Positions 18,635-64,000 of a stretch of DNA of 64,000 nucleotides are shown here, piece after piece. The stretch's first letter is position 1. Every line of letters starts with the position of its first letter. The DNA is from Dacryopinax spathularia (Eukaryota; Basidiomycota; Dacrymycetes; Dacrymycetales; Dacrymycetaceae), in contig JBBPFI010000009.1 of NCBI GenBank assembly GCA_037974965.1, forward strand, positions 682,001 to 746,000, written 5' to 3'. A model generated the notes under the pieces. The model was not told the DNA's origin. It made no database searches and saw only the letters and a program-made list of their open reading frames with translations. The position numbers and the translations under genes were made by a program.

Positions 18635-18760
18635 GTACGGGCTCGCTCGAATCGCTGTTGTCGAGCCCCAGTACATAGAACTGTCTCCTGCACGCCTTCA
18701 TAACAGTGTCTTAGCCTAATAGCGTCTTCTCCAAAGGGTGATTATACAAAGAACTATTCT

Positions 18761-23403: not shown

Positions 23404-23529
23404 AGAATAGTTCTTTGTATAATCACCCTTTGGAGAAGACGCTATTAGGCTAAGACACTGTTATGAAGGCGTGCAGGAGACAGTTCTATGTACTGGGGCT
23501 CGACAACAGCGATTCGAGCGAGCCCGTAC

Positions 23530-38938: not shown

Positions 38939-40261
38939 CAGTAGCGAGCAAAAGTAATGACGCGGGACCCTGAGTGTTGTTTGTCGCTGTCGTCGTTGTC
39001 TGTTCGTGCCATTGTCTCTTGCATTTCTTGATACCTTTATACATACCTTGATATCCAAACTTGGGATGGTGACTACTTGGGCTGCTGCAAGAAAAGCCCC
39101 AAAGCCGCATGTTTATGCAACACCTTCCAAACGTTGCGCAATCCTTGTGCTCCGGAAGCATGGGATGCCATGGGCCGATATCGCTGGCGAGCTCAACATT
39201 TCGATTTGGACCACGCAAAGACAGTATAACTGGCTGGTCTATGGAGGTCACCATCTCTACTCCCCTGTGAGGAGACCTGGTCATTGCCGCTTGCTTTCAC
39301 CCAACAGTGTCGACCGAGCTGTTCAGGGTTTCGATGATGGCGAGTTCATGGATGCTGCAGACTGTTAAAGAAGGCTCTTTCCATACGTCAGTCTTCACAC
39401 AGTGTGTTGGGCACTTATCAAGCGTGGATTGCATGGTGGGAGTGCTGCCAAGAAGCCTTTGTTGGAAGAAGCACATGCAAGAATCCGCCTGCAATGGTGC
39501 CTCGAGTGACAGGACTGGACCATTGATGACTGGAAGCAAGTGGTCTTTTCCGACGAGTCAGCTGTCAGCATTTCAGGTTCATATGGCCGACGTTATGTTA
39601 GAAGAAGAGTGGGAGAGTGGTACAAGCCTGGTAAAACCATACCAACAGTCAAGCATCCGAAGAAGATTTTGGTTTATGGCTGTATCTCGCATTTGGGGCC
39701 CGGTCCCCTATATTGCTTCATCGACACAGTTGATTCCGAAAAGGACATTTGCGCTGTGGATCAAAGTTACTTGCAAGGCTTGATTCGACGGCGGAAGATG
39801 ACAACAGAGTTCATTTATCAGCATGATAATGATAGGAAGAGCAAATCTCTGCCTGTCATGAAATGGCTTGACCGGCATGGAGTTTACCTCATGGATTGGC
39901 CGCCCTACTCCCCTGAGCTAAACCTGATTGAGAACTGTTGGGACTGGATCAAGGCAAAGCTCTCCAAGCGCTCTCCAGCCCCTCGGACGCCTGAAGAGTT
40001 GTGGAAGGCCGCCGAGGAAGAATGGGATGCAATCCCAGCCTGGTATATCGAGAAGCTTTATACATCACTGCCTCATAGAATAGCGCTCATGATCCAGAAT
40101 AATGGCTACCATATCAAATACTAGGATAATACCTTCATAATGCACCTATACACTTTTGTTGATGATATGTAGCAATGTTGTGTTTAAGCCAACGAAAAAC
40201 CGCCCAGCCAACCGTCACAAGGGCCCGCAATGAAAAGCGTCATTACTTTTGCTTGCTACTG
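38939..40261 (+). mobile_element. Tc1-like element, copy 3, with terminal repeats and TA duplication
   Basis: 1,323 bp between inverted repeats starting CAGTAGCGAGCAAAAGTAAT at the left and its near-match (CAGTAGCAAGCAAAAGTAAT) read inward from the right. TA flanks both ends (38937-38938 and 40262-40263). The transposase reads plus, opposite to the gene it interrupts. Confidence 0.93.
39066..40124 (+). pseudogene. Tc1/mariner-type transposase, copy 3 (two stops)
   Basis: Starts at the ATG of MVTTWAAARKAPKPH. HTH part: LRKHGMPWADIAGELNIS. Catalytic blocks: VVFSDESAVSISGSYGRR, FIYQHDNDRKSKSLPVMKW and WPPYSPELNLIENCWDWIK. It diverges strongly from copies 1 and 2 and is a different lineage. Two in-frame stops are visible, TAA at 39366-39368 (likely from CAA) and TGA at 39507-39509 (likely from CGA); no frameshift was needed to follow the protein. 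The middle motif has lost the usual His-Thr after the second Asp. Confidence 0.85.
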
Positions 40262-41947: not shown

Positions 41948-44066
41948 CAGTGCAACCCGTGATTAAGCATGACCATGGTTAAGCATACACCCAGATTATG
42001 CATGGGCCCAGCCGACTCCCAGATCGTAGTTAGAAAATTGGGAGGGCAATAAGCATACCTCTGCATTAGCATATTGCATAGCAAATTTGATGTCACTTTG
42101 ATATGTTTATGCTTATTAATAAGGGTGTGCGGTCCGGAACGGTTTGGAGAAAAGCTTGGCAAGGTAAACATTGGCTCGCTTTATAATGCCGCTAGGAATT
42201 CTAGGGAATCCCCTGTTGAAACCATGAAGCACACCCTTTCTGCAGTGGTGCCCGAGCAAGAGGAGAGTAAACACCATACCTTGACTTTGCATGATAAAAT
42301 CATTATCCTTGACTATGCCAAAGATCATCCAACAGAGTCTCAAACCAATATCGCTTCTCACTTCCAGAAGAATGGCTTTCCAGCTCTAACCCAGTCGTCA
42401 GTCTCCTGCTTCCTTGCCAGCGAGCAGCAGCTCCACACCCAAGCAGCACAGAAAGGCAACCTATCATTCAAATGCCCCAGGAAACCCGAGTATCCAGATG
42501 TGGAGCAGAGCCTTGTGACATGGCTGGTCCAGGCGCAGGCAAAAGGAGTGAAGATCTCTGGTGATGTTCTGTGGACCAAGACACGTCGATATGCCCAGCT
42601 TCATGGCGTTGACTCAGAAGAGTTCCTTTCACTCTCCAACGGCTGGCTGGAAAGGTTTAAGCTGCAATACAGCTTGAAGGAGTGGAGGTTGCATGGCGAG
42701 GCCGGATCCGTTGATATCGACCAGCTTGAACCAGCACAGAAGAGGCTGCTTGCAATCACAGACAAATTTGCACCTGACGATATCTTCAACATGGATGAGA
42801 CGGGTCTCAATGACCGCATGCCACCAGACCATGGTCTTGCCTCTGAGAACCATGCTGGTGTGACTACCGACAAGCATCGGATCACCTTAGCATTCACCGT
42901 GAACAGCACAGGCACAGAGCAGCTCCCTCCTCTGTTCATCGCCCATGCTTGGAAGCCGTGATGCCCTCTGAAGAAGACTGGACCGCAGTTGGGGTTTGAT
43001 TATCATGCCAACAAGAAGGCATGGATGACCAGCGCAATTTTTCAGAAGTACCGCTTGCTTTCTTCATCATGGCCGCTTGCTAAGTCCCTTTCAGATATCT
43101 TGAAGCACTTGATCTCCAAAGGCGGCGAGCTGGGCGGAAGATCCTTCTCCTTCTTGACAATGCCCCCAGCCATATTTACGATGCGTCAACAATCCACAAC
43201 ATCTGAGTTGAGTTCTTTCTGCCCAAAATGACATCCCAAATCCAGCCACTCGATGCTGGAATTATTTGAGCATTCAAGGGACACTATAAACGCCTTTTCT
43301 GTGAATGGGCTGTTGATCTGGAAGAGCTTGGCGAGACCGATATTTACTCTGTCAATCTTTTGGAAGCAATGCGGCTCTGCCTACAAGCCTGGGAATGCGT
43401 CACCAGCAAGATGATTGCCAACTGCTGGCATCATGTCCAAATCATCACACCTTGAGGCCCAGATGGCAAGCCGCTAAACACTCCCTTCGAGCGCTTTCCT
43501 GCACCTGAAGATTCTGTTCAAGACGAAGATCTCGAGGCTGCAACATCCTGCCTTGGCGAGCTGCTTCACAACATGGTTGAGACAGGGATCATTGCCCGAA
43601 ACCGTGTCATGGCCATCGAAGAGCTCCTGAACCCAGAGGAAGAGGAAGAAACCAAGAAAGAATGGGATGACCTCGATATCCTTGAGCAGACATTATCTGA
43701 TATCCGGATCAGCGCTGGTCATGATGAGGGCTTCACAGAAGATGATGTGGTTGCAGAGACTGGGTCTCGCTGGACCAAGCAGGAAGCACTAGAAGCAATC
43801 ACTGAGCTTGTGCACATGTTTAAAGGATGGGTGGGTAAGGAGTATGAGGCAGCACTAGGGCTGTTCCCTCGCCTCTCTCGAGCTCTCAAATATGATCAGG
43901 CACAAAAAAAGTCGCAAATCACGTTAGATAAGTACTTTCGCTAGGTAGAACATCGGTATCTTGACAAATGATCACCTGTCCCTCCACCCTCCTGAATAAG
44001 CATTGCCTGAGAATAAGCATAACTGACCCCTTCCACCGAGCCCATGCTTAATTGCGGGTCGCACTG
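41948..44066 (+). mobile_element. pogo/Fot1-like element 1 with terminal repeats
   Basis: 2,119 bp. The left end is CAGTGCAACCCGTGATTAAG and the right end read inward is CAGTGCGACCCGCAATTAAG, imperfect repeats of about 24 bp. Flanked by TA (41946-41947 and 44067-44068). The right-hand TA is also the left flank of the next element. Confidence 0.9.
42224..43944 (+). pseudogene. pogo/Tigger-like transposase (CENP-B type), four TGA stops
   Basis: Starts at ATG 42224. The N-terminal half has two DNA-binding helical domains as in CENP-B (LTLHDKIIILDYAKDHP; WLVQAQAKGVKISGDVLWTK and NGWLERFKLQYSLKEWRLHG). The catalytic core is NMDETGL (about 42791), LLLLDNAPSHI (about 43142) and QPLDAGII followed by AFKGHYKRLF, giving Asp-Asp-Asp. 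A 47-nt intron (43048-43094, GTACCG...TTTCAG) restores the frame. The C-terminal acidic tail ends at 43944. The only breaks are four in-frame TGA codons (42959, 43204, 43267, 43453); at the first three Arg is expected from family knowledge, so CGA-to-TGA. Otherwise full length. Confidence 0.88.
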
Positions 44067-44068
44067 TA

Positions 44069-45929
44069 GGTTAGCAGTGACTGGGTCAGGGTGCATGCCA
44101 CTGCAAGGTGCTAAGACATCTCGTTGCTCTCCTACCTTGTACTCTCCGTAGCTTGTTCAACTCCATGCCTGCCTCATACCTATCTTATCCTGAGAGCCAG
44201 AGGATGCTGGCGCTTCAAGCACTTGAAGCGGATCCCAATCTATCTGTCTGTGAAGCTGCAAGATGGTACGAAGTCCCTTCCACCACCCTCCAGTGCAGGG
44301 TGAATGGCTGGCCATCCTGATGCAACACTCGAAGCCCAAAGGCTCTTCTGACTGCTGCTGAGGAGGATGTGCTGGTCCAGTACATCTTGAGGCTTGATGA
44401 GGGAGGGTTTCCACCACAGAGGGGAGATGTGGAAGGGATGGCAAATCTGCTGCTGGCGAAATGGGGTGAGACGAGCACTGGGAAGGCATGGACAGACCGG
44501 ATGATCAAACGACACCCAGAGCTGCAGATGCGCTTCTCACGGCCATACACCTATCAGCAAGCAAAGCAGGAAGATCCCATCACAATTGCTGCATGGTTTA
44601 GGCTTGTGCTGAACATGCAAGCAAAGTACGGTGTCCAACCTGGCAACTTCTACAATTTGATGAGTCTGGCTTTGCATTTGGAATGATCAAGGCATCGAAG
44701 GTCATCACCAGTGCAGCAGGGTCTTCCAGACCCAAGGCTGTCCAGCCGGGCAATTGAGAGTGGGCAACAGCAATCTGCTGCATTGCGGCAGATGGCTTTG
44801 TCCTGGCACTGTTCCTCTGCATCTTGGGGCAATACCACCTTGCTCGGTGGTATGCAGACACTGATCTCCCAGCCAACTGGGTCATTAAGCCAACAGACAA
44901 GGGCGGGACTGACAACTCTAGGGGCCTTGACTGGCTCCAGCACTTTGATCGCCTGACTAAGGGCTGCCGGACAGGTCGCTGGAGAATGCTGGGTTCTTGA
45001 TGGTCACAAAAGCCATGTCACTCCCAAGTTCAGGCAATATTGCAAGAATAACGACATTGTTCCACTCTGCCTACCTGCCCATTCCTCCCATCTTACCCAG
45101 CCTCTTGATGTTGGGCTTTTTGGTCCGCTCAAGCAAGCATACAGCAACTAAGTTTGCTCCCTGATGCAAGCAGGTGTCACACACATCTCGAAGCCCGACT
45201 TCCTGAAAGCCTTTGGCATTGCTTTCACCAAAGCATTCACAATCTCAAACATCAAGAGCGCTTTCCAAGGTGCAGGCCTGGTGCCTCTAAACGAAAATGC
45301 GGTTCTCTCCCAGCTCAATGTGCGACTCTGGACACCTACACCTACAGCTGTGTCTGAGGGCCTGCATGAACCATGGGTCTCGCAGACACCCAAGACAGCT
45401 GAAGAGGCTATTGCCCAGTGCACGCTGATCAAGAAGCGCATCCTTCAGCATCAAGGAAGCTCACTCACACCAATGTTTCGAGCCATTGACCATCTTGCAA
45501 GCGCAGTCATCCAAACAAACCATGACATGACGCTCCTGTCCAGACGGGTTGGTGCACTTGAGAAGCGCAGAATGCAAAGATGTCCAAGTGACAGAGGATC
45601 CCAAATGCCCACCTGCAGGATGCCGGAATGCTCACAGGAGAGGAGGCTCAACAGCTATTGGCTGAGCATGGGCTTGCTTGACAGGAAAATGACGAGATAG
45701 TTCCAGGGGAGGGACCAGCAAAATGGGCCAAACCAGCCAGCGATGCTGTGGAATCTGTAGAAAACAAGGTCATAATGCTAGAACCTGCCTAGCACAAGAT
45801 GAGATAGAGGGCATGAGCAAGAGTGACTTGGATTGATCAATAATGCATTGTGGTTGAGCTATTGATGTGCTGATGCGGTGGGTCCCAAAACCTGACCTGT
45901 TCATTGCTTCAACCCATTCACTGCTAACC
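44069..45929 (+). mobile_element. pogo/Fot1-like element 2, abutting element 1
   Basis: 1,861 bp. Left end GGTTAGCAGTGACTGGGT; right end read inward GGTTAGCAGTGAATGGGT. Flanks are TA (44067-44068 and 45930-45931). It carries the transposase remains at 44165-45700. Confidence 0.85.
44165..45700 (+). pseudogene. Fot1/pogo-type transposase, several breaks
   Basis: Begins MPASYLSYPESQRMLALQAL with an HTH (LSVCEAARWYEVPSTTLQ), a CENP-B-like block (AEEDVLVQYILRLDEGGFPP; TGKAWTDRMIKRHPELQMRF) and DDE remains: DESGFAFGMIKAS (about 44661), DLPANWVIKPTDKGG, DGHKSHVTPKF (about 45001) and AHSSHLTQPLDVGLFGPLKQ (about 45082). Stops: TGA 44318-44320 (RPSR-type Arg expected), TGA 44755-44757 (Arg expected) and TAA 45149-45151 (Gln expected). 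Two frame shifts occur, near 44655 and 44990. The C-terminal region ends LDRKMTR at 45700. It belongs to a different lineage from element 1. Confidence 0.82.
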
Positions 45930-45931
45930 TA

Positions 45932-46063
45932 CGTTAAATGGGGCTCATTAGGCAGTGAGGTGCATGAATGACCTCCTGTGTGAAGGAGAAGTATATATCT
46001 CTGGTTGCCATGACATCACCCTATGCAAGGAATTTGCTGCATGTGAGACACCTGAGGACCATA
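45932..46063. other. Unique sequence next to the minisatellite
   Basis: Short unique stretch leading into the 18-bp repeats; open in the same plus-strand frame as the repeats from about 45955. Confidence 0.35.
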
Positions 46064-46190
46064 TCGCCTGCAAGGACACCCTCACAGGTGAGAACGCCAT
46101 CGCAGGTGAGGATGCCATTGCATGCAAGGACAACATTGCCGGTGAGGATGCCATTGCAGGCGAGGACAACATTGCAGGCATCGAAGCTCG
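46064..46190. repeat. 18-bp minisatellite, block 1
   Basis: Degenerate repeats of GGTGAGGATGCCATTGCA type, each 18 bp or a close multiple, so a six-residue pattern (GEDAIA / CKDNIA) is kept in the plus frame. A second block with GCAAGGACATCATTGCAT units occurs at 46490-46650. The period is not that of a CRISPR array and there are no unique spacers. Confidence 0.8.
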
Positions 46191-46211
46191 ATCGCAGCAA
46201 ATCCATTGGCC

Positions 46212-46213
<2 letters not shown>

Positions 46214-46245
<32 letters not shown>
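46214..46245. repeat. (GA)n microsatellite
   Basis: About sixteen GA dinucleotides in a row. Confidence 0.95.
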
Positions 46246-46249
<4 letters not shown>

Positions 46250-46297
46250 CGGAAAGGTGAAATAAGAGAGACAATTTGGACGATGACATATTCATAA

Positions 46298-46311
46298 GGG
46301 GGGGGGGGGGT
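46298..46311. repeat. Poly-G run
   Basis: A run of about twelve G residues within otherwise AT-balanced DNA. Confidence 0.9.
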
Positions 46312-46489
46312 GATTTATTTTGAGAGCTCTGGAGGCTTGTGCGGCAGCGGAAGGACAGGCTTTGAGGACACAAGTGTTGTCCTTCTCAATCCTTACTATC
46401 AGAGCCATAGTTCCTCGCTGGCAATGGGTCCATGAACAAAAAGGCTAGTGGGTACAAGGAGCCATCAGCGTGGCGAGGACAACATCACC

Positions 46490-46650
46490 GGCAAGGTCAA
46501 CATTGCATGCAAGGACATCATTGCATGCAAGGACATCATTATAGGCAAGGATGCCATTGCATGCAAGGTTGAACATTGCATGAGAGGACAATATGGCATG
46601 CAAGGACAACATTACATGCAAGGACTACATCACATGCAAGGATGACATTG
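46490..46650. repeat. 18-bp minisatellite, block 2
   Basis: Units of the form TGCAAGGACATCATTGCA, related to block 1 with GGTGAG replaced by TGCAAG. The plus frame encodes a CKDIIA-type repeat. Confidence 0.8.
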
Positions 46651-46660
46651 CCTGCCTGTA

Positions 46661-47991: not shown

Positions 47992-48299
47992 TGAATAGAT
48001 ACTGTTAGGTTAGACCCAAAGCATCAAGGGATAGCATTGATATGGCTTTTTGGTGGTGTCCCGTATGTATTTCGGAGTCGAAAAGAGTGATCTGACGTGG
48101 GGTCAAGTCGAAGTGATAGGTAGAGCAAACAAGGGGCAAAACGGAATCGATAACGAGTGTCTGGTACAGATCTCTGCTTATATACGAATCTAAGTAATGA
48201 GTTTGGACTCGTCCGCCACCCTTTTTCTATCCGAAACGCAGGTTTCGGATCGCGGATCCAGCCCAGCCGGTCCTGCCCGTGTGTCCGGTCCCTATGTCG
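47992..48299 (-). repeat. 3' LTR of gypsy fossil 1
   Basis: About 308 bp, inverted relative to the LTRs at 51899 and 62497. The shared end reads AGTATCTATTCA, and shared core words include GGATCCGCGATCCGAAACC. By eye it is closer to the LTR at 62497 than to the one at 51899. Confidence 0.85.
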
Positions 48300-48439
48300 A
48301 AGTCGCGATAGTTACCGAAATTCCGATAAGCAGCTCATCCATGCCCCACCTTAGATCTTGACTGTCCCCAGTCAACTGGCTTCTAGGGCGTCGTGTTGGG
48401 GTGGAAACAAAAGGAAGGAAAGGAGTCGAATAGGAAAGG

Positions 48440-48541
48440 CAAGAACGATGGAAGGGACGAGAGGAAGAGATAGAAGGAGAGAAGGAGAGAGAGAGAAGGA
48501 AAGAGAGAGAGAAAGAGAGAGAGAGAGAAAGAGAGAGAGAT
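48440..48541. repeat. GA-rich tract upstream of antisense gene copy 1
   Basis: Purine-rich, mostly GAGA. The corresponding TC-rich tract (62275-62345) flanks the second copy of the gene in the inverted orientation, so it belongs to the element family and may be part of the gene's promoter. Confidence 0.8.
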
Positions 48542-48855
48542 GATCGCGGATGTTGGGCACCAACTGAGATGCTGCTGGGACGTACACGAGGCAGGCCCGG
48601 CATATTGCCGGCAGTCCTATCCAACGTTACAGCCGAGTTTGAGCAGTTTTGCTATTTCGAATGGCGACTTGTCCGAATTTGCGTCGGTCCTTACCAGGGT
48701 CTTTGCCAAAAGAGAAGCACGTGTCGGCATCCGCGTGTGGAACCAAAATTTCGACTCATTATGTTTGTCTCTGACGCCGCCCATTTCATTGTCTCTCTCT
48801 TTTCTCCACCTTCGTCACCACCGACATCTCAACTTTTTAAGTTCGTTTACTCCAA

Positions 48856-51262
48856 ATGTCTATGGCGCCCCGCATGCAGCCCGAAGACCGGCTTCACAAG
48901 GCCGAAATGGAGCTCGCTGGACTTCGCACCCAGCAGGAAGAACGCGCAAAGCGTGCGGCGGCGCGCAACTCGACGACGCCCGCCAAGACGACTCCGAAGG
49001 TGGCGGAGGAGGAGGAGAAAGAAGAAGGAGAAGTAGGGGAAGTCGAACAGGTGCGCCCGGTATTGTTTTTCGAATGGAGCTTGCTGCTGACACTTTTATA
49101 GGAGGCCGATAGTGAAGGGGAGGCAGCCAATATTGCTGCGCCCGCCGACGATCAAGGCGAAGCGGTCGCGCCGGCTGATGAGGCTGAAGAGGCGGACGAC
49201 ATGGTCGTGGACAGTGCTGTCCCGGCTGAAGAGGACGTTGTGCCGACTACGGACGACGTCGCAATTGCTGGACGAGCCGATGGAGGAAGCTGCAGCGCCC
49301 ATGCCTGCGCCCAAGGTCGCGAAGACAGTCGCTGCGCCGAAGGTCGCCAAAAAGGCGAAGTCGACCTCCATCCGGAGGTCAGCAACACCGAAAACGGTTG
49401 CGCTGAAGGAGAAGACGCCGGCACCGGTTGCCGAAGCGGCCAAGAAGATCGCGGCAAAGCCCATCGCCACGGTCAAGAAGATTGTGGCGGCTCCAGCTGT
49501 TATCGACTATGTCGATGCGGAGGAGTCATTCAAGGAGGCGTTGGAGTCGGAGGAGGAGGCGATCGAGTCGGAGGAAGAGGTCACGGAGATCGTCCCGGTC
49601 ATGCGAAGCATCCGGGAGGTCATGCTCGCCATTCCGGCAAGGCCGGAAGACAGAGCGGTGTGGGCGGCGAACGAAGATAACGTTCGCTCCGTCCGTGTAA
49701 GTTTCCCTTTTCTTTTCGGTTCGTTCATTGCTAATACGGATTTGTAGCGCAATTTGATAGCTGCTCTGGCAGCAAAGAACGGTACAATCGCGGATGTGGA
49801 CAAGGTCCGCGTCCGTTACTTTGGTCCTGCGACGCAGGCGGCCTGGAAAAAGGCCAAGGTACGTTTTTCGGTAGTTTCGATATTCTTTTCGATCACTGAC
49901 TTGTACTTGGTAGGGAGTTCCTGACTTCGTGATCGGTGTACGCGGCCCTCCGATTGAGGAGGGTGAAGATATCGCGCCGAGCCCGGCACAGGTACACCCC
50001 TTTTCGAACGTTTTCGGCAGGACATATGGCTAACACATTGCTGTAGGTTGCGGCAAAGGCAAAACTGACGGTGCGCGAACCGGTGCCCATCGTGAAGAAG
50101 GTCGAGACCGCAAAGCGGTCGGTTGCGAAGACGCCAGAGCCGGTGAAAGAGGTGAAGAAGGACAAGAAGGAGGCAGCAAAGCCGCAGACAAGGGAAGAGG
50201 TGGTCGTTGTCCTGTCGGACACGGTACGTTTCTTTTATACAGTGTTCGCGAAATGCTTCTGACTGGTGCGATAGGAAAAGGAGTCGTCCACGGCAAAGGG
50301 GCCCTCGCCGCCATAAGGTCAAGTTGGCCGTGATTGTGCCGGAGTCGGTGAGTGCCTTTGAACAACCATCGCCAAACGTACCGATCATATACGCAGGATG
50401 TCGAGTCGCTTCAGTCAGTCGCGACTGCCGCCAAGGCGAAGCCAAAGCCGAAGGCAAAGGGAAAGGGCAAGGGGAAGGAGAAGAAGAGAGAAGTACGTCT
50501 TCGCAATTGATAGGAGATGATACTGAGCTAACTTCGGTCCGATAGCGCACTCCTGGACTTCCCAACAATGACCCGGTATGCTCTTCTGTCTCTACTTGAC
50601 GTGCTATGGAACGCTGACTCGATTTTAGTGCAACCAGTGCTCTGAGCGGGGCCGAGCCTGCTCCGGTGGCTATTGTTTCGATCCGACGGTGGACGACCTC
50701 CTTCTGCGTTGTGGGCGGATCTGGGACCAGTGCCTGAAGCATTGCGATCGCGGTGGATGTGACTTCGCCCAGGCCAGTAAGTGTTTTCGGTTTTTTGACG
50801 TATTTCGGACGTCACTAATCTGTGGTTGTAGCGGCCCGCCGTCATCGTGTCGGCGTCAAACGCGATATCGGCGAGGTCGACGACGCGGCGCCCGGCCCCT
50901 CCAGCAAGCGGGCGAAGATCGCGATCATGGCGCAGCCGAACCCGAAGACGGAAAACTGCCCCGTCGCCGCTGCGCTCCGGCTCCCCCTTCGTAAGTCCAT
51001 TTTGTTTATTTCGAATATTTCGATTGACCTTCGTTATAGATAAAGCGGTCGACATCTTGCGCGACGAGGTCAAGCTGGCCGCCTCGCTCGTCGTGATGAT
51101 GTTGCACTCCCTCGGCAACCTGCAGGACGTGCTCGAGGACAAGAAGACCCACGCCACGGTCTATGTGATCCTGTGCGACGGCAAGACATACGACGAGTCG
51201 CGCCTCGTCCGTGTTGTGCCCAAGGATGACGATATGGAGCGCGTCAGGTCGGACGAGGAGTA
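48856..51262 (+). CDS. Antisense cargo gene of the gypsy family, copy 1
   Basis: Runs opposite to the element's pol, between pol and the 3' LTR. It starts at the ATG of MSMAPRMQPEDRLHKAEMEL (48856) with a short coiled segment, followed by an acidic part, a Lys/Ala/Pro-rich part (VAKTVAAPKVAKKAKSTS), an acidic repeat (SEEEAIESEEEVTEI), a block RYFGPATQAAWKKAK, another Lys-rich part, a Cys-rich block (CNQCSERGRACSGGYC, then CGRIWDQCLKHCDRGGC) and a C-terminal helical domain (VDILRDEVKLAASLVVMM) ending RSDEE. At least six introns of about 50 nt with GT-AG borders separate these parts. The Cys block suggests zinc binding; charge patterns suggest chromatin or nucleic acid contact. Function unknown. 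As part of a fossil element no assessment of individual lesions is given. Confidence 0.7.
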
Positions 51263-51534
51263 GAACAGAGTCCGGAGGGTTTCGGCAGCGGGTCGAAATG
51301 GAGGGAGCGGTAGTTAGAAATGCTCCAGGTAGTTTTTGCTGTACAATAGATAGTGTGGTGGAAAGAAACAGTGTGAAAAACCAATCGCGTGAATTTCGGT
51401 AATTTCGGTCGAAGGACTTTAAGATATTTGGCCTATGGTGTCTGGTATGCAGGCTTGCGACGTCTAAGTCTATGTCGTCTAGGTTCGAAATGATATTTCG
51501 GATTATTCCGGCTTTCATATGTCTGCCGCATCGT

Positions 51535-51668
51535 CATCCTCTCCGTCGTCTTCGTCTTCGTCTTCTTCTCCTTCTTCTTCTTCTGCTTTGTCTTCTTCTC
51601 CTTCGTCTTCTTCTGCTTCGTCTTCTTCTCCTTCTTCTTCTTCTGCTTCGTCGTCTTCTGTGGCTTCC
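51535..51668. repeat. TTC/TCC-rich microsatellite in the gypsy pol tail (fossil 1)
   Basis: Encodes a Glu/Asp-rich tail on the minus strand. The matching GAA tract in fossil 2 lies at 59219-59294. Confidence 0.85.
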
Positions 51669-51898
51669 CGTTCTTCTCTCGGCCGCCCTGCCTGCGGGTC
51701 CACATCGACCGCGTATGGCGCTTCCCAAAGCTTACGCAGTATTGCATCGATGTGCGTCCTCAAATCCAAGCGAGCATAGTACGGAATAAGCCTGAAGGCC
51801 GCGATGGAATTTTGAAAAGGCGTACCGTCAAGGTCTGTGACCACATATGCTCCACCGCGTGTGCGTTTGACAACAACAAAAGGACCGAGATATAACTT

Positions 51899-52204
51899 TG
51901 ACATAGGGACCGGATGCGCAGGCAGGATTGCTGGACTGGATCCGTGATCCGAAACCTGCGTTTTGGATATGAAAAGGATGGCGGATGTGTCCGAACTCAT
52001 TACTTAGACTCATATATAAGCTGTGATGTGTAGAAAACATTCGTTATCAATTCTGTTTTGCCCCTTACTAGATCCTCTTGCCTTCTTGACTCAACCCAGC
52101 TTCATATCACTCTTTTCGACTCCAAAATACGTACGGAACACCACCAAAAAGCCATATTGATGTTATCCCTTGATGCTTTGGGTCTAACCTGGCAGTATCT
52201 ATTC
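51899..52204 (+). repeat. 5' LTR of gypsy fossil 2
   Basis: 306 bp starting TGACATAGGGACC and ending GTATCTATTCA (TG...CA). A TATATAAG box-like word lies near 52014. Confidence 0.85.
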
Positions 52205-54697
52205 ATTTGGAGGTCGATCTGGGATAATTTCCGACTTGGCCTTCGATGTCCATTCACTGATATAACGATACAAATGCTGCCAACCTGTCCACTCGTAGTG
52301 GAAAACCATATTCGATGGTTCCGTCTCGCCTACTGATTCATGCTACAACTTTGAACCTTACCACACGATCCCGCTCCGCTCTGGTCTCGTCCCGGAGTAT
52401 CGAAAAACTTTCTATCTGACACCCCATCACATCCGAAATAGCTGAAATGCCCACAGTAGACCCTGTTGTCTCAGCGCCACGCGGGAGCATGCCTCTCCAT
52501 ATGGCCCGGCTGTATCTCGACAGTGTTGCACCTGAAACAGTGGTACAGTACTTTGAGGATGTGGAGCAGTGTGCCAAAATGCTGGACTACCCCTGAAAGA
52601 CTGTATCAAGTGGGCACTTTGGTACACCCCCACCAATGTTGCTGAAACCTGGAGAACTTTCCCATCCGCGGAGGGCAAAGATTACCCGGCATTCAAATAG
52701 GATGTCTTAGGACTCTACCCTGGCGCAGTAGAAGACGACTCCCTCTATACACAAAGTGATCTTGAATGGGTCATTAGTATGAGTGCCAGCATTCAAATGA
52801 TTAACCATGCCCAGCTCACAGAATACCGCCGCATTTTCCTTCACATTTCAACACGGCTCAGCAAGAAGAAGTGAATTTCGGATTACGAGAGAAATGTGTT
52901 GTTCATGCGGGGTTTTCATTACGAGTTCCAGGACAAACTCCGGAACCGCCTGCTCATTAAAAAGCCTGACCAGCGCCCGGACGAGCCCTATGACATGGAG
53001 GATGTGATTGCGGCGGCTGAGTTCTTGTTGGCCGGCACTTCAACAAGTGGTCCATATGTGCCCCTCACTTCGGTGAGCACGATGCCAGCCGTACTATCTC
53101 CGGCAGCAGGTGGACATCAGTCCGGACCGGTTCCTAACCGCCTGGTCAAGACCGAAACGGAAGCCGGTCTAATGATAGCTATCTTGACACTCATGACAAC
53201 GGTCGAAATGCTTCTGCGATGCAACATGGAACGCGGCGCGTTACGGCGGCTGTCAACGGAAATTTTGGTCAAGGGTACCCAACGCAGGTGCCATGACCTG
53301 CAACAAATCCGAACCTGTCCAATAACGGAGGGTGTCTATGGTGCCGGCAGTCTGGACACATGATGCGAGAGTGTAACGATCTCAAAGACCATCTTCGACG
53401 GGGCCTGGTAATCTGAAATGCTACAATGAACCACCTGACGCTGCCGGAGGGTATGCTGCTGCCCCGTGTAATGGGAGTGAATATGAAAGAGAACGTTGTT
53501 TCTTGGCATAGTTGCAATCTGAATCAGATGGTTGCAGACTTAAATGCTCGGGCAAATATTCTGAACCATGTGAATGCCTCAGTAAACCTTGTTTTGGTCG
53601 TATCGGATGTCCCGCCCTTTACGATAGATGTCCCTAACATTGTCTTGCCCTTTTCGCTTGCCAATTTTCATTTGGCCCCAGCTGACATGATGGAGCTGAA
53701 ACGGACACTTGCGGTGCTCCAAACACAGCTAAATCAAGCCTGAAACCCGAAACAACAAGAGGGGCGGCCACTCCCAATACATCGAGAGCATGCACCCAAA
53801 CTGGTGAGAGCTAAGAATGTACCAAACCGTTGCGTATGGGAAACAACACCGGAGGAAATTATCGAATGCTTGGTCGAAGAGCAGGAGATGGTCGATAAGC
53901 CAGTTGGAAACACCGGAATCAAAGAGCAGGCTCGTACCCATCTCAGAGCCCCAGTAGAGGATGACACCCAAGCCGAAAAGGTTATTTCGTTGATAATGGG
54001 TAGCGAGCTCACCATGTTGGTCCGGGATATGCTTGCCATTTCTCCTCAAATCCGAAAATACTTTTGTCAACAAACCACCACAAAGCGGCTACCCAAGCCC
54101 ATTACGGTTTTATTGGTAGACCCTACAGCACCCCTAGAGGTTGTTTTGGAAGATATCGAAAAACAGCTGCTGCCCAAGGCACAAAGCGATATCTACGATT
54201 ATGTGATGCACGTGTCCGTAAATCCAAAGGCACCTGCAGGAGCCATTGTGGCTCCGTCGATGGTCGAGCTTTGGACCATCAATGTGCTGGTTGCAGATGA
54301 TGATGTAGCTGTTGCTGGTATGCTGGATTCTGGCGCATCGCTGGTTCTTATGAATCACAATATTTGGAAGAAGCTGCACATCATTTACAAGCAAACTCTG
54401 GGACACATCCATTCTGCCAACGGAGCGACGACGGCCACCGAAGGCCTGATCCAAAATCTCCGTTTATCGGTTGGACCAGTTACCGGGCTGTTTCAGGTTC
54501 ATGTCATAAAGAATCTCCCGGTCCTACTGCTCTTAGGCAGGCCATTCCTTACGCTATTCAATGCCAAAATGAAAGACTTCGGTAATGGCAAATTGGAGCT
54601 GACCATAACCTGCCCGAATACCGGAGTTACTGTTGTCCTTACGACTCACGCAGCCGGAAATCATTCCAAACCGGCTGCAATAGAGGAGGATTTTTAG
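52205..54697 (+). pseudogene. gag and protease region of gypsy fossil 2 (broken)
   Basis: A gag-like stretch (DKLRNRLLIKKPDQRPDEP) is followed by a zinc-knuckle remnant near 53340-53390 and an aspartic protease block (AGMLDSGASLVLMNHNIWKK, about 54315) with downstream LLLGRPFLTLFNAKM, as in retropepsins. Fossil; broken in several places. Confidence 0.75.
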
Positions 54698-54976
54698 GAG
54701 TCAAGGACCCGGTAAACCTATGGCGAGATGACCAGCCTATATTGGCATTTGCCTTTCTTATTCCACAAATAGATTTTATCGATCACGAAACCTTATCTCA
54801 ACATTATTATTTCGATACCCTCCAACATGCGCTCGCGATCCGAAAATACAAGAAAGTCGATGAGCGGGTGAAACCCGTCCCGCCACCACAACCTGAGCAC
54901 CTCAAAATATGACGTCGTTTCCCCTCAAAACCTCTCAAACACATGAAACCCTTACCGAAACATCTGCCTGAGTTGT

Positions 54977-56129
54977 CAGGGCACACCATACTAGCAAAGC
55001 CCGAAACATGAAGATGAGGGCAAAGCGGATCGACACTGGTGGCCCTGACAGCCGAACAACCCATAATAAGGTCGCTAGGTGGATCGGAGACCGACTTGAG
55101 GTCTCGGGCCAACGTTGACCATACTTGTATGGGTGTCGGGCCATCAGGCCATGTTGGGAGCAATGGTAGTGGGGGTCGGTGGTGTCGGGTCCAATAGCAG
55201 TACTCAGCCTGCTTCAGCATCCCAACGCGGGAGGTCCGGATGAGGGGGTTGTGGCTGTCGACCACAATCAAATGTGTCGAGGGAGCCAGAGGTCGAGTCG
55301 TCTAGAGTCGATACCCACAACAAGGGCAGTCGGCAGTAGTCATCGCTCGGAGGAGGGGTTCGGCAGTGGGTCTATGGTGTCGCCACCAATCGGACTCCAG
55401 TCGCCCGGGGTGTCGACCAGAAGACTGGACATCGGCTGTTGAGAGCGTGCTTCGGCTCATCGGTACTCATAACCGGAATGCCAAAGGACAAGTCACCGGT
55501 ACAATCACGAGTCGATCACAGGTCAGGGTCGGGTCAGAGGAAGAGGAGGGGAACTCGGCATCGAACATAGCACGAGTATGGCGAGAGACTGCGAACCAAT
55601 CCGAGAAGAGTTTCGCTCAGAGGTCATATCCGACAACATGTCGAAAAGGCCTAGTCGCGCTAGCGGTTGTACGCTTCGGCTCGTCGGTATATCGGACCGG
55701 GATATGGAAGGTGTCGCCAGTGGTGTTGCAAGTCGAGAGGTACAACGAGGGGGAATAGAGCAGTGTCGTCATGGGTCGTCACTTTGGCATCCGTGCCAGA
55801 AGTCGGTCAAGGCACGTCGCACAGGTAACTGCCCAACTCAAGGGAGTCGGTCTTCAGGTCGCACTGGACGGTGGGATTCCTGAGAGAACAGATCTGAGGC
55901 TACAGTGCCCCCAGACCCGTGCACTAAGTACATGCAGAAAAGGAAGCAATACTACGGTGGCTTGGAACTGTACAGCCCTACCTCAGGGTGCAGCCGACAC
56001 TGCGCGATACCTACAACACTCTTGACACTGCTCTCCAAAGGTCCCTATTGTTGGCCCAAATGCGGTGTGTCGGTGGTGTATCAGGCTGCAGTTGTGTGTG
56101 TGTCGGAGTTGACGGGACGTCCCCTGACA
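54977..56129. mobile_element. Solo-LTR-like insertion inside gypsy fossil 2
   Basis: 1,153 bp beginning TGTCAGGG and ending CCCTGACA, flanked by TGAGT on both sides (a 5-bp target duplication). TG...CA ends with a 5-bp duplication fit a solo LTR; the 8-bp inverted ends would also fit a small non-autonomous DNA transposon. It has no convincing coding region. A partial inverted copy lies at about 63300-63920. It sits in pol between the protease and RT parts. Confidence 0.75.
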
Positions 56130-56175
56130 TGAGTTCTCTCCGGGCTTTCGACTTACCCAGGAACGGTTTGATGCC

Positions 56176-58856
56176 TTGAACATCAACCGACATAATTTTC
56201 TCTGGCTGGATGAGGAGAAACTGGTGGCATGGATTTATCGCGAGCACGAACATGCGTTTTCTTGGACAGAATCCGAACTTGGGCGCTTTCGTGATGACTA
56301 CTTTGATCCAGTCGTACTTCCTAGAGTCAAACACACTCCATGGCAAGAGCGAAATACACCCATCCCTCCCGGAATCCTCGAGAGTGTCCTTGACATGCTT
56401 CGCGAGAAGGTTAAGGCCGGAACATATGAGCCCTCTCAATCTGTGTACAGGTCAAAGTGGTTCGTCGTGCCGAAAAAGAGTGGGGAACACCGCCTGGTTA
56501 TCAATGCACAGCCGCTGAATGGTGTCATGATCCAAAGCACTTCGGTCCCACCGATTACGGAACACCTTCTCGAGAGTTATGGCGGACGAGCATGCTATGG
56601 GCTTCTGGATTTTTATTGCAGTTTTGAGCAGCATTCACTTGCCCCAGAATCGCGGGATCTGACGTCCTTCCAAACGCTTATCGGACCTCTCCGCTATACT
56701 GTTGCCCCGATAGGAGCCCACAACATGCCTGGTATCATGCAGGATAACGTAAATTTCCTGTTCAGCGACGAGATACCTCATATCACAACGCCTTTTATTG
56801 ATGACCTAGGCATTAAAGGGCCTACAACTCGTTACGAGACTAAAGGCGGGTACGAAACGATCCGCGAAAACAAGGGGATACGCCGTTTCGTATTCGAACA
56901 CCTCACAAATGTTCACCGAATCATTACTCGAGCGGAACATGCCGGAGCGACCTTTTCCGGGCCAAAGGCGGAGCTATGCTCACCCGAAATTATTCTTTTG
57001 GGCCATCGATGCTCCTACGAAGGCCGACACCCTGATCCAGCTAAGGTGCAAAAGATAATCGAATGGAAACTACCTTGCGAAAATATTTCGGAGGTACGCG
57101 CGTTCCTGGGGACCGTTGGCATCATGCAAATTTTCATTTGCGATTTCGCCCGGATCGCTCGGCCCCTCAAGAACCTCAAGCGAAAGGATGTCGAGTTCTG
57201 TTTCAGAGATCGCAAACTGAACACGGTGCGCCAGCTACAAGCAGCAGCACTCGAAGCAGAACGTAACCACGTTTTGACACCAATCGATTAGAAATGCGGA
57301 CGTCCGGTCACACTCGCGGTAGACTCCTCCAACATTGCAGTTGGTTTCGTACTATATCAGGAGGATGAAAAGGGACGGTGGCGTCCATGTTGATTCGGCT
57401 TGGTCGCATGGAACGACAGAGAATTGAAATACTCGCAGCCTAAGCTTGAGCTGTATGGGGTATATCAGGCGCTCCGACACTACCGTATCCGGCTGGTTGG
57501 CTTGCCTGAATTTACACTAGAAGTGGACGCGAAATATATCAAGGGAATGCTGAACAATCCCGATGCATGCCCAACTACGGTGCTTAATTGGTGGGTGTCC
57601 TGGATTCACCTATTCCCATTCAAACTCGTACACGTACTGGCTGACCGACATGTTGCCCCAGACGGTTTATCGCGCCGGCCACCGGCCGAGATTACCGAAT
57701 TCGAAAACCGACTTCCAGACGAATTTGAAGATGATACGCTTAACCTATCTCAGGTGTTTACACTAGAACTCGCATCACAGCCGCAAGTTCTGGTTCTTTT
57801 GGCCCAGGGGGGGATGATTCCGAAGTAGAGGCGGAGATACCTCATGATGCCAAGACAGTTAAGCAGGACAAGACGATTGAAAAGGTTATTCGATACCTTC
57901 GGTCCTTTCGCCGGCCTCCGGGTATGCTTGATAAGGAGTTCAAAGCGTTCTTACGGTATACTACGATATTCTTCCTGCTGGGCGAAGACGATTTGTATAA
58001 GAGAGACAGTAACGGAAAGCACCGGCTTTACGTTTCATACCCGGACCAACTCGAGATATTAGAGGCAATGCATGACAACCTTGGTCACCGCGGGTTCAGG
58101 ACGGTACACGCTCACATCTGGCTCCGGTACTGGTGGCCAAGTCTTACACAAGACATTAAGTGGTTCCTCAAGACGTGCGACCAATGCCAGGCGCAACAAA
58201 TGAAACATGTACACTTTCCGCCGACTGCACAAATGCCACAGAACCTCTTCTATAGAGCTCACTGCAACACAATGTTCATGCCAGTATCGCGAGGGAAGCA
58301 GCGGGGATATCGGTACATATTTCAGGCCCGCTGCTCTCTTACACATTATCCGGAGTTCGCGATCTCGAAAACCAAAAACGCCGAAAATATTGCTGAGTTC
58401 CTCTATAGCTCCATGCTATGCCGCTGGGGGGCTATTGCCGAAATTGTCAGCGACAATGGTACGCCTAGGGTCCGCGCTTTAGAGCAGCTCGCGGCAAAAT
58501 ATAACATAACGCATATCCGAATTTCAGGGCACAACTCGCGCGCGAATGGGACGGTGGAACAGAGTCATCGGAATGTTTGCCAATCTATTGTCAAGGTCTG
58601 CAAAGGGAATACAGCTGACTGGCCTGCTTCGGTGCCAGCGGTATTCTGGGCCAAACACATTTTGGTCCATACGTCAACCAGGATGAGTCCGTATTATATG
58701 GCACATGGTACTCATCCTACGTTACCCATCGATATTGTTCAAGCAACCTGGTTGGTTCCACCACCGGAGAAGATATTCAGCCGTGCAGAACTAATAGCAT
58801 ACCGTGCGAGACAATTACTCAAACGCGAGACAGATTTGAATGAGATCCGACGCTGA
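56176..58856 (+). pseudogene. RT, RNase H and integrase region of gypsy fossil 2 (broken)
   Basis: Reverse transcriptase blocks (VYRSKWFVVPKKSGEHRLVI; YGLLDFYCSFEQHSL; HITTPFIDDLGIKG), an RNase H part around 57400-57560 (SQPKLELYGVYQALRHYRI), and integrase with the HHCC-type region (TCDQCQAQQMKH) and core (IAEIVSDNGTPRVRALEQL; GHNSRANGTVEQSHRN). The order RT-RNase H-integrase marks Ty3/gypsy. Fossil with several breaks. Confidence 0.88.
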
Positions 58857-59033
58857 ATCCTGCAGGCTCAGCAAGTATCGGCTGAGCGATTCTGCAAAAA
58901 GTTCGAAAATATAATATCGGACGAAACGTTTGAACCTGGCCACTTGGTGTTGATTCGAAACACTGCGAACAACGGACCAATGAGGGATAAAACACTTCCA
59001 TGATATCTCGGTCCGTTCCTTGTTGTCAAATGT

Positions 59034-59429
59034 ACGCACGGTCGAGCATATGTAGTCGCAGACCTCGATGGTACACCCTCCCAAAACTCGATCACGGCCT
59101 TCAGGATTATTCCGTATCATGCTCACATGGATTTGAGGACGCACATCGACGACATCCTACGTAAGCTTTGGGAAGTGCCATACGTGGTCAACGCGGACGC
59201 GCAGGTAAGGCGAGCAGGAGAGGAAGAAGAAGAACAAGATGAAGGAGACAAAGAAGAAGAAGAAGAAGAAGAAGAAGAAGAAGAAGAAGACGTTGTGGCG
59301 GAGATATGGGGGCCAAAATATGTTTTCAAACCTAGACGACATAGACTTAGACGTCGCAAGCCTGCATACCAGACACCACAGACCAAATACCTGAAGTCCT
59401 TCCCTCCGAAATTACCGAAATTCATGTGA
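59034..59429 (+). pseudogene. C-terminal tail of gypsy pol (fossil 2)
   Basis: Matches the tail in fossil 1 (GRAYVVADLDGTPSQNSITA, then SFPPKLPKFM) with a Glu-rich repeat encoded by GAA repeats at 59219-59294. It ends shortly before the antisense gene's stop codon, so the two coding regions converge. Confidence 0.7.
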
Positions 59430-59549
59430 TTGGTTTTTCACACTGTTTCTTTCCACCGCACTATCTATCGTACAGCAAAAACTAACTGGAGCATTCTAAC
59501 TACGGCTCCCTCCCTTTCAACCCGCTGCCGAAAGCCTTCGGACCCCGTT

Positions 59550-61956
59550 CTACTCCTCGTCCGACTCGACCTGCTCCATCTCGTCGTCCTTCGGCACGAC
59601 GCAGACAAGGCGCAACTTGTCGAACCTCTTGCCATTGCGCAGGATTGCGTAGACCGTGGCATGGGTCTTCTTGCCCTCAATTGTGTCTTGGAGGTTGCCG
59701 AGGGAGTGCGACATCATTGCGACAAGCGATGCGGCCAGTTCGACCTCGTCGCGCAAGATGTCAACCGCCTTATCTATGACAAAAGTCAACCAAAATTCTC
59801 CGAAATGAAAATACGACACTTACAAATGGGGAGCTTGAGCACGGCGGCCAGAGGGCAGTTCTCCGTCTTTGGGTTTGGCTCCACCATGATCGCAACCTTC
59901 GCGCATTTGGCGGAGGGGCCAGGCACCGCGTCTTCCACCTCGCCGATATCACGCTTGACGCCGACACAATGACGGCGGGCCGCTACAAGTACACATTAGC
60001 AATGTCCGAGATTCGTTGAAAAGCCGGAAAGACTTACTGGCTTGCGCGAAGTCACATCCGCCACGATCGCGATGCTTCAGGCACTGGTCGCAGATCCAAC
60101 CATGGCGCAAGAGGATGTCATCCGCCATTGGATCGAAATGGTAGCCGCCCGAGCAGGCTTGGCCCCGCTCAGAGCACTGGTTGCACTAGCATCGTGTGAG
60201 CATTGGACATAACGTGAAGCAGAGACAAAAAGAACATACCGGGTCGTCGTTGGGAAGTCCAGGAGTGCGCTACCGGACCGAAGTTAGCTCAACATACTCT
60301 CCTACAAATCACAAACATGTACCTCCTTCTTCTTCTCCTTTCCCTTCCCCTTTCCCTTCGCCTTCGGCTTCGGCTTCTCCTGGGCGGCCGTCGCAACCGA
60401 CGGGAGCGATTTAGCATCCTATGTGCGTTGTCAGTACGTTTTGCGATGCAGAAACAGATGCCCTTACCGACTCCGGCACAATCGCGGCCGACTTGATCTT
60501 ATGACGGCAAGAGCTCCTCAGCGCAGACGACTCCTTTTCCTATCGCACTGGTTAGAATGCATTCGAAAACAAAGTGAAAATGAGACGTACCGTGTCTGAC
60601 AGGACAACGACCACCTCCTGTCTCGTCTGCAGCTTTGGCACCTCCTTCTTCTCCTTCTTCACCTCCTTCGCCGGCTCCGGTGTCTTCGCGACCGACCGCT
60701 TTGCAGTCTTGACCTTCTTCACGACGGGCGCCGGTTCGCGCGCCATCACCTTTGCCTTAGCCGCGACCTACAGCAATGTGTTAGCCTTCTGACCTGCCAA
60801 AAACATCTGAAATGCCTACCTGTGCTGGGCTCGGTGCGATATCTTCACCTTCCTTGATGGGAGGGCCGCGTACACTGATTGCAAAGTCAGAAGCTCCCTA
60901 TAAATTGCAAGTCAGTGATTGAAAAGATACCGAAATAACCGAAAAGTGTACCTTGGCCTTCTTCCAGGCTGCCTGCGTTGCAGGACCAGAGTAAGGAATG
61001 CGGACCTTGTCCACATCCATGATCGTACCGTTCTTGGCTGCCAGAGCAGCTATCAAATTGTGCTACAATCCGTATTAGCAATGAACAAATCGAAAAAGAA
61101 AAAGGAAACGTACACGGACGGCGCGAACGTTATTGTCGTTCGCTGCCCACACGGCTCTGTCTTCCGGCCTTGCCAGGATGGTGAGCACGACTTCCCGGAT
61201 GCTTCACACGACCAGGACGATCTCCGTGACCTCTTCCTCCGACTCGATCGCCTCCTCCTCCGACTCCAACGCCTCCTTGAATGACTCCTCCGCATCGACA
61301 TAGTCGATAACAGCTGGAGCCGCCACAATCTTCTTGACCGTGGCGATGGGCTTTGCCGCGATCTTCTTGGCCGCTTCGGCAACCGGTGCCGGCGTCTTCT
61401 CCTTCAGCGCAACCGTTTTCGGTGTTGCTGACCTCCGGATGGAGGTCGACTTCGCCTTTTTGGCGACCTTCGGCGCAGCGACTGTCTTCGCGACCTTCGA
61501 CGCAGGCGCGGGTGGCGCGGCTTCCTCCATCGGCTCGTCCTTGCTGACCGCCATGTCGTCCAGAGCCGGTGCAATGTCTTCTTCAGCTGGGACAGCACCG
61601 TCCACGACCATGTCGTCCGCCCCTTCAGCCTCATCGGCCGGCGCGACCGCTTCGCCTTGATTGTCGGCGGGCGCAGCGATATCGGCGGCATCTGCCTCAC
61701 TATTGGCCTCCTATAACAGTGTTAGCAGCAAGTCCCATTCGAAAAACAATACCGGGCGTACCTGTTCAACTTCCCCTACCTCCCCTTCCTCCTTCTCCTC
61801 CTCCTCCGCCGCCTTCAGAGTCGTCTCGGCGGGCGTTGTCGACTTGGACGCCGCCGCACGCTTTGCGTGTTCGTCCTGCTGGGCGCGAAGTCCAGTGAGC
61901 TCCATTTCAACCTTGCAAAGCCGGTCTTCGGGCTGCATGCAGGGTGCCATAGACAT
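59550..61956 (-). CDS. Antisense cargo gene of the gypsy family, copy 2
   Basis: Same gene as 48856-51262, again antisense to pol and in the same place in the element. It starts at the ATG of MSMAPCMQPEDRLCKVEMEL (61956) and ends at 59550. The same blocks occur in order: coiled start, acidic part, VAKTVAAPKVAKKAKSTS, acidic repeat, Lys-rich part, CNQCSERGQACSGGY block, and C-terminal helix VDILRDEVELAASLVAMM. Intron positions appear shared. The coding blocks are more alike between copies than the introns, by eye. Treated as part of a fossil element; state of individual lesions not described. Confidence 0.7.
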
Positions 61957-62496
61957 TTGAAGTAAGCAAAATTGAAAGTTGAGATGTCGGTGGTGACAAA
62001 GGTGGAGAAAAGAGAGAGACAGTGAAATGGGCGGCGTCAGAGACAAACATAATGAGTCAAAATTTTGGTTCTGCACGCGGATGCTGACACGTGCTTCTCT
62101 TTCGGCAAAGACCCTAGCGAGGACTGACAGAAATTCGGACAAGTTGCCATTCGAAATGGCAAACTGCTCAAACTCTGCTGTAATGATTGGATATCCCTGC
62201 CGCCAATACTTCGGACTCGTCCGCCAAACGTCCCAGCAGCATCTCGGTTGGTTCGCAACCTCCGCAATCATCCCGCGTTCTCTCTCTTTCTCTTTCTCTC
62301 TCTCTTTCTCTCTTTCTCTCCTTCCTTCCGCCCTTTCTCCCTCGTTCTTTCTGTTCTCTATTCCACTACTCCACTTCAATTTGTTTCATTTCCACACCCA
62401 CACGACACTCTACGAGTCGGTTGACTGGGGACAGTCAAGATCTAAAGTGGGGCATGGATGAGCTGCTTATCGGAATTTCGGTCACTATCGCGACTT

Positions 62497-62803
62497 CGAC
62501 ATAGGGATCGGACACACGGGCAGGACCGCTGGACTGGATCCGCGATCCGAAACCTGCGTTTTGGATATGAAAAGGGTGGCGGACGAGTCCGAACTCATTA
62601 CTTAGACTCGTATATAAGCAGAGATATGTACCAGACTTTCGTTATTGATTCCGTTTTGCCCCTTACTTGCTCCATTTACCACTACAACTCGACCCCGTGC
62701 CAGATCACTCTTTTTGACTCCAAAATATGTACGGGACACCACCGAAGAGCCATATTGACGTTATCCCTTGATGCTTTGGGTCTAACCTAACAGTATCTAT
62801 TCA
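62497..62803 (+). repeat. 3' LTR of gypsy fossil 2
   Basis: About 307 bp ending TCTATTCA, followed by CTAGGTC. It shares a TATATAAGCAG word with the other LTRs. Confidence 0.85.
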
Positions 62804-63299: not shown

Positions 63300-63920
63300 C
63301 CCTTTGCATATGGCTTTGGACTATGTTCAAAGCCAAGTTTCCCCACCTTCCTCCAACCCAACCCCAACCTATGATTGACTTGCAATTGCAATCTAACTGT
63401 CGACTCATCCTTCGAGATTTCCGTTTATGAGTACCGATGTGCCGAAGCATGCTCTCGACAGCCAACGTCCAGTCTTATGGTCGACACCCTTGGCGCCAGG
63501 ACTCCGATTGGTGACAAACACCATTGACCCTCTCCCCACTCCCTCCGTCAAGCGACAACTACTGGCGACTGCCCTTGTGCTGGGCATTGACTCTAGATGA
63601 CTCAACTCTGGCTCACTTGACACATTTAAATGTGGTCGACAGCCAAACCCCTCCCTCCGAACCTCCCTCATCGGGATGCCAAAGCAGACCGAGTACTGCT
63701 GTCAGACCCAATACCACCGACCCCCACTACCACTGCTCCCAACATGGCCTGATGGCCCGACACCCCTATGAGCATGGTTGATGCCGATGCAAGACCCTGA
63801 GTCGGTCTGCAATCTGCCTATTGACCTTATATGGGTTGTTCGGCCATCAGGGCCACCAGTGTCAATCCGCTTTGCCCTCATCGTTATGTCTTGGGCTTTG
63901 CTAGTATGGTGTGCCCTGAC
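63300..63920. repeat. Inverted, decayed partial copy of the 54977 insertion
   Basis: The reverse complement aligns by eye with about 54977-55560, including TGTCAGGGCACACCATACTA at the end near 63920. Differences are mainly transitions, many at CG positions, with the copy here CpG-poor. The other end of the repeat is not recognisable. Confidence 0.75.
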
Positions 63921-64000
63921 ATTATCAACTTCTGTTGTTTACTGGTATAGACACTATTGGATCATCTGATATAGTAGTTATTGTAACTGAGTCAACTGCG

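Follow-up and report, generated by a model that had tools for sequence, protein, structure and literature searches.

An intron-rich gene antisense to pol in two gypsy retrotransposon copies of Dacryopinax spathularia

A window of 64,000 nt from the basidiomycete Dacryopinax spathularia (GCA_037974965.1, contig JBBPFI010000009.1, positions 682,001 to 746,000; all coordinates below refer to this window) contains two old, neighbouring and mutually inverted copies of a Ty3/gypsy retrotransposon family. Copy A (47992-51893) has pol on the minus strand, copy B (about 51895-62803) on the plus strand. Their alignment comprises 3,916 columns with 83% identity. In both of these two copies, a gene running antisense to pol lies between integrase and the 3' long terminal repeat (LTR), the arrangement of the aORF-3R class of antisense open reading frames (aORFs). 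This confirms the original prediction, the two coordinates of which, 48856 and 61956, coincide with the start codons in A (plus strand) and B (minus strand), respectively. Copy A retains only the 3' LTR, the antisense gene and the last stretch of pol (about 51391-51893). Copy B retains a truncated 5' LTR, a gag CCHC pattern, protease, reverse transcriptase (RT), RNase H, integrase with a GPF-type end, the antisense gene and the 3' LTR. The similarity between A and B does not extend beyond the outer LTR end (47992 in A, 62803 in B), outside of which the flanks are unlike. Therefore, both copies were most likely inserted separately, and the gene would have passed through at least two insertions.

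The gene model has 11 exons and 10 introns. In copy A, it extends on the plus strand from ATG at 48856 to a TAG ending at 51263 (exons 48856-49050, 49102-49696, 49748-49858, 49914-49991, 50047-50223, 50275-50347, 50397-50492, 50546-50575, 50629-50776, 50832-50990, 51040-51263). In copy B, it extends on the minus strand from 61956 to 59550, again with a TAG (exons 61956-61762, 61710-61114, 61062-60952, 60897-60820, 60767-60591, 60539-60468, 60418-60323, 60269-60240, 60185-60038, 59982-59824, 59773-59550), and lies tail to tail with pol, the stop of which is 120 nt away. The B gene comprises 628 codons with a single premature in-frame stop (TGA, codon 234, exon 2), and the A gene has two frameshifting indels relative to B (2 nt and 1 nt) in exons 2 and 6. 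Each of the ten introns measures 49-55 nt, has GT-AG borders and occupies a homologous place in A and B, as expected from the earlier claim of common introns of about 50 nt. A branch-point-like motif (CTNAY/TTRAY) is found 10-13 nt before the intron end in 19 of the 20 introns, all but intron 6 of A. With a strict definition drawn up after inspection of the introns (GTR, branch-point motif, YAG, 45-60 nt), eight of ten introns were recovered in both copies and none on the opposite (pol) strand, whereas 300 shuffles of the alignment columns yielded on average 1.0 and at most 5.

The openness of the reading frame was dropped as evidence. When introns were freely chosen, 40 dinucleotide shuffles of B gave open paths of 305-651 codons compared to 627 in B and 671 in A, and the opposite strands gave 385 and 511 codons. 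This means, an open path with free intron choice is worth nothing by itself. The evidence for a real gene consists in the shared splice signals and in the pattern of change between the copies.

For the latter, we left out a tract of 283 nt (49313-49595 in A and the inverted counterpart in B) over which the copies, otherwise about 17% different, show no difference; it was probably generated by recent gene conversion between the inverted copies. Before its removal, 627 of 629 codons were usable. In the remaining 531 codons, 64, 52 and 123 differences affect codon positions 1, 2 and 3, respectively (chi-square p 1e-8). Downstream of the tract, the divergence of third positions matches that of introns 3-10 (24.4% vs. 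25.7%, p 0.69), whereas that of positions 1 and 2 is 10.8% (p 6e-11). Indels are concentrated in introns, with 6 events in 517 intron nt compared to 2 in 1886 exon nt (p 0.002). A comparison of nonsynonymous and synonymous change between the copies, proposed as a check along with the original prediction, yielded a rate ratio (dN/dS) of 0.28 (bootstrap 0.21-0.37; 0.30 with the tract). In CpG-aware neutral simulations, dN/dS was 0.36-0.60 with a mean of 0.48 and a minimum of 0.29, and all 500 of 500 values were above the observed one. This null replaced a less strict one based on composition only, in which the same changes were redistributed by base (0.57-0.99). As the observed value is below the CpG-aware null, CpG decay explains a part of the low ratio and protein constraint the rest. 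Thus, there are signs that selection has maintained the protein between the copies.

These data bear on two other explanations. If A and B were one segmental duplication, the gene might be a chance reading of a low-complexity stretch rich in Lys, Ala, Pro and Glu, which would agree with the similarly long open paths in the shuffles and with a number of stops that is not clearly low. The differing flanks outside the LTRs argue against this, and the common splice signals, the mostly intronic indels, the codon-position bias and the CpG-aware simulations speak so strongly against it that we regard such an artefact as scarcely credible. Alternatively, an intron-bearing fungal gene might have been trapped in antisense orientation by an ancestral element and carried along as a passenger useless to it. 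Ten introns and a conserved leader (see below) resemble a host transcription unit, and the protein has no similarity to Pfam families, viral and transposon ones included. However, a passenger should drift, but dN/dS of the gene is below all 500 CpG-aware simulations and about that of the pol GPF fragment, for which 0.27 was obtained over 64 codons only and with no interval from the two copies in the window. We regard a captured passenger as unlikely.

Upstream of the start codon, a conserved leader or promoter-proximal block was found (copy A, 48640-48855, plus strand; left edge chosen by eye). It is identical to B at 194 of 214 sites (90.7%) compared to 74.3% (309 of 416 sites) in introns 3-10. 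The flank following the stop codon (51264-51390, edges set by eye) is 90.5% identical. The approximately 300 nt separating leader and LTR are 72.8% identical, the LTRs 90.3%. Since the leader is well kept and the interval between leader and LTR is not, the antisense gene is suggested to be driven by a separate promoter and not by the LTR, although the LTRs are well kept, too. A conserved leader and 3' flank would also be expected if the antisense transcript itself acted, by double-stranded RNA or by interference with gag-pol transcription, and coding were incidental. Such roles have been proposed for plant antisense ORFs (PMC7264820). An RNA alone, however, needs neither three-periodic, amino acid-sparing change nor the kept splice signals, which makes this explanation improbable. 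Between A and B, the 3' LTRs differ by 9.7%, whereas the two LTRs of B (51895-52205 and 62455-62803) are 15.4% apart. As the 3' LTRs are more alike than B's own pair, dating from LTRs was given up.

The encoded protein has an acidic N-terminal part and contains Lys/Ala/Pro-rich stretches mainly in exons 2, 5 and 7, in keeping with the predicted repeats of these residues; these stretches resemble linker-histone tails. Exon 9 (B, 60038-60185, minus strand; A, 50629-50776, plus strand) encodes a six-cysteine block, C-x2-C-x6-C-x20-C-x2-C-x8-C in B, of which copy A keeps five of the six cysteines. The original prediction of a zinc-ribbon-like block was correct with regard to the cysteine richness, but the label zinc ribbon is better replaced by six-cysteine block. 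The fungal Zn(2)Cys6 pattern reads C-x2-C-x6-C-x5-12-C-x2-C-x6-8-C. The block shares with it two C-x2-C pairs, each with a third cysteine (C-x2-C-x6-C and C-x2-C-x8-C), but its middle loop has 20 residues instead of 5-12, and no Zn(2)Cys6 match was found in Pfam up to E 10. Among all Pfam families up to this threshold, no match was obtained for the B protein; Stig1 (E 1.1) appeared in one copy and was taken as chance. No PDB sequence matched the antisense-gene protein up to E 1. Searches of virus contigs with integrase, RT, exon 9 and exon 11 and of prokaryote genome contigs with exons 9 and 11 returned no usable relative; the sole match (15 residues in a Bacteroidales record) was considered to be due to chance. 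As the collections searched comprised viruses and prokaryotes, this absence of relatives says little about fungi. Judged by the cysteine block and the Lys/Ala/Pro stretches, the product is probably a nuclear nucleic-acid-binding protein.

The remains of both elements agree with a Ty3/gypsy (Metaviridae) assignment. In B, the pol order is protease, RT, RNase H, integrase, and direct LTRs of 349-350 nt (by inferred ends) with TG...CA termini as well as a primer-binding site (PBS)-like sequence after the 5' LTR are present. The 3' LTR of A (47992-48341, minus strand) comprises 350 nt in pol orientation and reads TGGATGAG...CTATTCA; it was delimited by the end of similarity and by LTR alignment, and the TGGATGAG end was inferred by eye. 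The pol remains of A (51391-51893, minus strand) contain the C-terminal GPF module of integrase and an acidic tail, as found by tblastn with the GPF piece of B and in the ORF list. In copy B, all pieces of which except the antisense gene are on the plus strand, the 5' LTR (51895-52205) lacks the first 38 nt of the inferred LTR and is followed 2 nt downstream by a PBS-like sequence starting with TGG (52208-52224). An in-frame match to the gag CCHC zinc-knuckle pattern is located at 53333-53374. The protease piece (53744-54697) matches Pfam gag-asp_proteas with E 1.8e-7. The RT piece (56128-57291) matches PDB entries 4ol8 (E 1.1e-12), 7kse (1.5e-12) and Ty3 Gag-Pol 7q5b (1.6e-11), and a Pfam search yielded no RT family match for it. 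The RNase H piece (57394-57828) matches RT_RNaseH with E 9.6e-5, below the curated cut-off, and the integrase piece (57744-58856) Integrase_H2C2 (E 2.1e-16), prototype foamy virus (PFV) integrase (E 1.4e-7) and Ty3 (E 0.0015). The GPF module with its acidic tail (59004-59429) was taken from the ORF list and named by eye, without significant Pfam match. Altogether, pol of B from RT to GPF (56128-59429) is split into four open pieces. The 3' LTR of B (62455-62803) comprises 349 nt, its first base being inferred by eye.

Copies A and B are joined at 51893-51895. At this junction (51885-51910), a short stretch, ACTT[T/C]GACATAGGGA, is common to the pol end of A and to the LTR, and the 5' LTR of B begins without its first 38 nt. 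Since the join lies inside this shared stretch, B is no clean nested insertion, and the junction looks like a microhomology rearrangement. Between protease and RT of B, a stretch at about 54950-56120 fits no pol frame; a part of it, about 600 nt, is found again in inverted orientation at 63321-63921 (81% identity). The stretch is probably a nested mobile element.

Other transposon relics in the window are a Plavaka relic (8401-9677, minus strand), DDE_3 relics (35145-35753, minus strand; 39510-40124, plus strand) and HTH_Tnp_Tc5 relics (42053-42961 and 44321-44686, both plus strand). Plavaka is typical of Agaricomycetes, and its transposase together with the short introns points to a basidiomycete host. 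The antisense gene might have arrived with another mobile element that inserted in antisense orientation into an ancestral gypsy element and hitch-hiked thereafter, as the window is crowded with such relics and B itself is interrupted by the repeat also present at 63321-63921. No transposase family of Pfam, however, matches the protein, and we consider this origin highly improbable. As regards terminal repeats at the gene edges, the repeat listing of the window covered those of at least 60 nt. Between 30000 and 47900, CpG observed/expected is 0.56 compared to 0.95-1.21 in five other stretches tested; by its composition, this is an old, CpG-decayed stretch holding transposon relics. Clustered 18-nt repeat units of the type GCAAGGACAACATTGCAG are found at 46034-46659. 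Furthermore, an inverted repeat of 2,995 nt (15776-18770 and 23394-26388), 99.87% identical, 4.6 kb apart and with internal repeats spaced about 290 nt, appears to be either an assembly artefact or an inverted duplication of very recent origin.

With a probability of about 0.62, we propose that the gene is an accessory gene of this Ty3/gypsy family that has its own leader, is spliced by the host, preserves its introns in antisense orientation and encodes a nuclear nucleic-acid or chromatin binder tuning the element. Reverse transcription of LTR elements uses the genomic RNA as its template; introns in sense orientation would thus be lost or would hamper it, whereas antisense introns are inert. 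According to this proposal, the gene, antisense to pol, would be read in the nucleus from its own leader close to the 3' LTR, the host would splice out ten introns, and a product of about 628 aa would be translated. As the introns are antisense in the genomic RNA, they would not be removed before reverse transcription and would be copied intact into new insertions. This fits the retention of all ten introns in both copies and a pol strand without a conserved strict intron, and accords with the reason for intron survival given in the original prediction. The product would enter the nucleus, bind nucleic acid or chromatin via its Lys/Ala/Pro stretches and its six-cysteine block and tune expression or integration of the element. 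This regulatory role, assumed by analogy with Grande gene23 and retroviral antisense genes (see below), is the weakest step. The earlier view that the arrangement is coherent rather than accidental is borne out by a gene that is antisense, built for splicing, common to two separate insertions and constrained.

Several points weigh against this proposal. Three in-frame stops including the two terminal ones were observed, not clearly fewer than in the simulations (mean 5.1, range 2-10); since this is within the neutral range, the number of premature stops was dropped as evidence. CpG decay accounts for part of the low dN/dS, as the mean of the CpG-aware null is 0.48 and not 1, and this null assumes C or G to be ancestral at transitions, which is a guess. 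The window contains only two copies, both broken. The identical tract together with the LTR distances makes gene conversion likely, or else B is a chimera, and dating is blurred. The protein has neither a family match in Pfam nor a solved relative in PDB. Structure models of exons 9 and 11 have low confidence (mean predicted local distance difference test scores, pLDDT, of 56.7 and 65.1), and in the exon 11 model a helix is confidently predicted only over about residues 2-30.

Antisense accessory genes of LTR retrotransposons are already known from plants and, among fungi, from Boty-like elements. The latter, with the antisense gene brtn, were reportedly described by Zhao et al. in 2011. Their hosts Botrytis cinerea and Sclerotinia sclerotiorum are ascomycetes, unlike the present host. 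In these Ty3/gypsy elements, brtn lies antisense between pol and the 3' LTR (PMC7264820, PMC8365987, PMC4227169). Thus, the same kind of arrangement, a fungal LTR element with an extra antisense gene between pol and 3' LTR, is already known. The original assumption that such a gene is not described in fungal gypsy elements has to be corrected insofar as antisense genes are not confined to plants (PMC7264820, PMC8365987). It stands insofar as no antisense gene with many introns and none of a basidiomycete gypsy element was among the matches listed, which comprised titles and abstract starts and left most subscription papers outside their scope, so that one may occur in print. The intron-rich version looks new.

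In plants, antisense genes between pol and the 3' LTR that are maintained across copies comprise gene23 of maize Grande and the aORFs of rice RIRE2, Silene Retand (TRP28) and PvRetro13 (PMC7264820, PMC11963269). Grande gene23 possesses a promoter of its own, and its product is nuclear (PMC7264820). In contrast to the gene reported here, the plant aORFs are described without the word intron in PMC7264820 and PMC11963269, although the former calls for a search for spliced antisense transcripts. The proteins differ as well, as neither TRP28 nor another Pfam family matches the present one. An intron-rich example under apparent purifying selection indicates that a complete spliced gene can be maintained by a retroelement through reverse transcription. 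Annotation pipelines could mistake such element genes for host genes.

Among retroviruses, the transcript of the antisense gene HBZ of human T-cell leukemia virus type 1 (HTLV-1) is spliced. A tentative extension of our proposal, which we hold to be possible rather than probable, is a basidiomycete gypsy lineage in which an antisense regulatory gene with many introns is a regular component. It would be a retroelement counterpart of HBZ in which the antisense position allows a full host-style gene that depends on the spliceosome to survive reverse transcription, perhaps to regulate transcription of the element or to tie expression of the gene to nuclear splicing. HBZ, listed among the retroviral antisense genes in PMC11963269, resembles the gene as proposed here in being a retroelement antisense gene near the 3' LTR that encodes a nuclear regulator, although element and host are unrelated. 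The HTLV antisense promoter is located inside the 3' LTR (PMC7264820), whereas the conserved leader found here lies about 300 nt away from the LTR.

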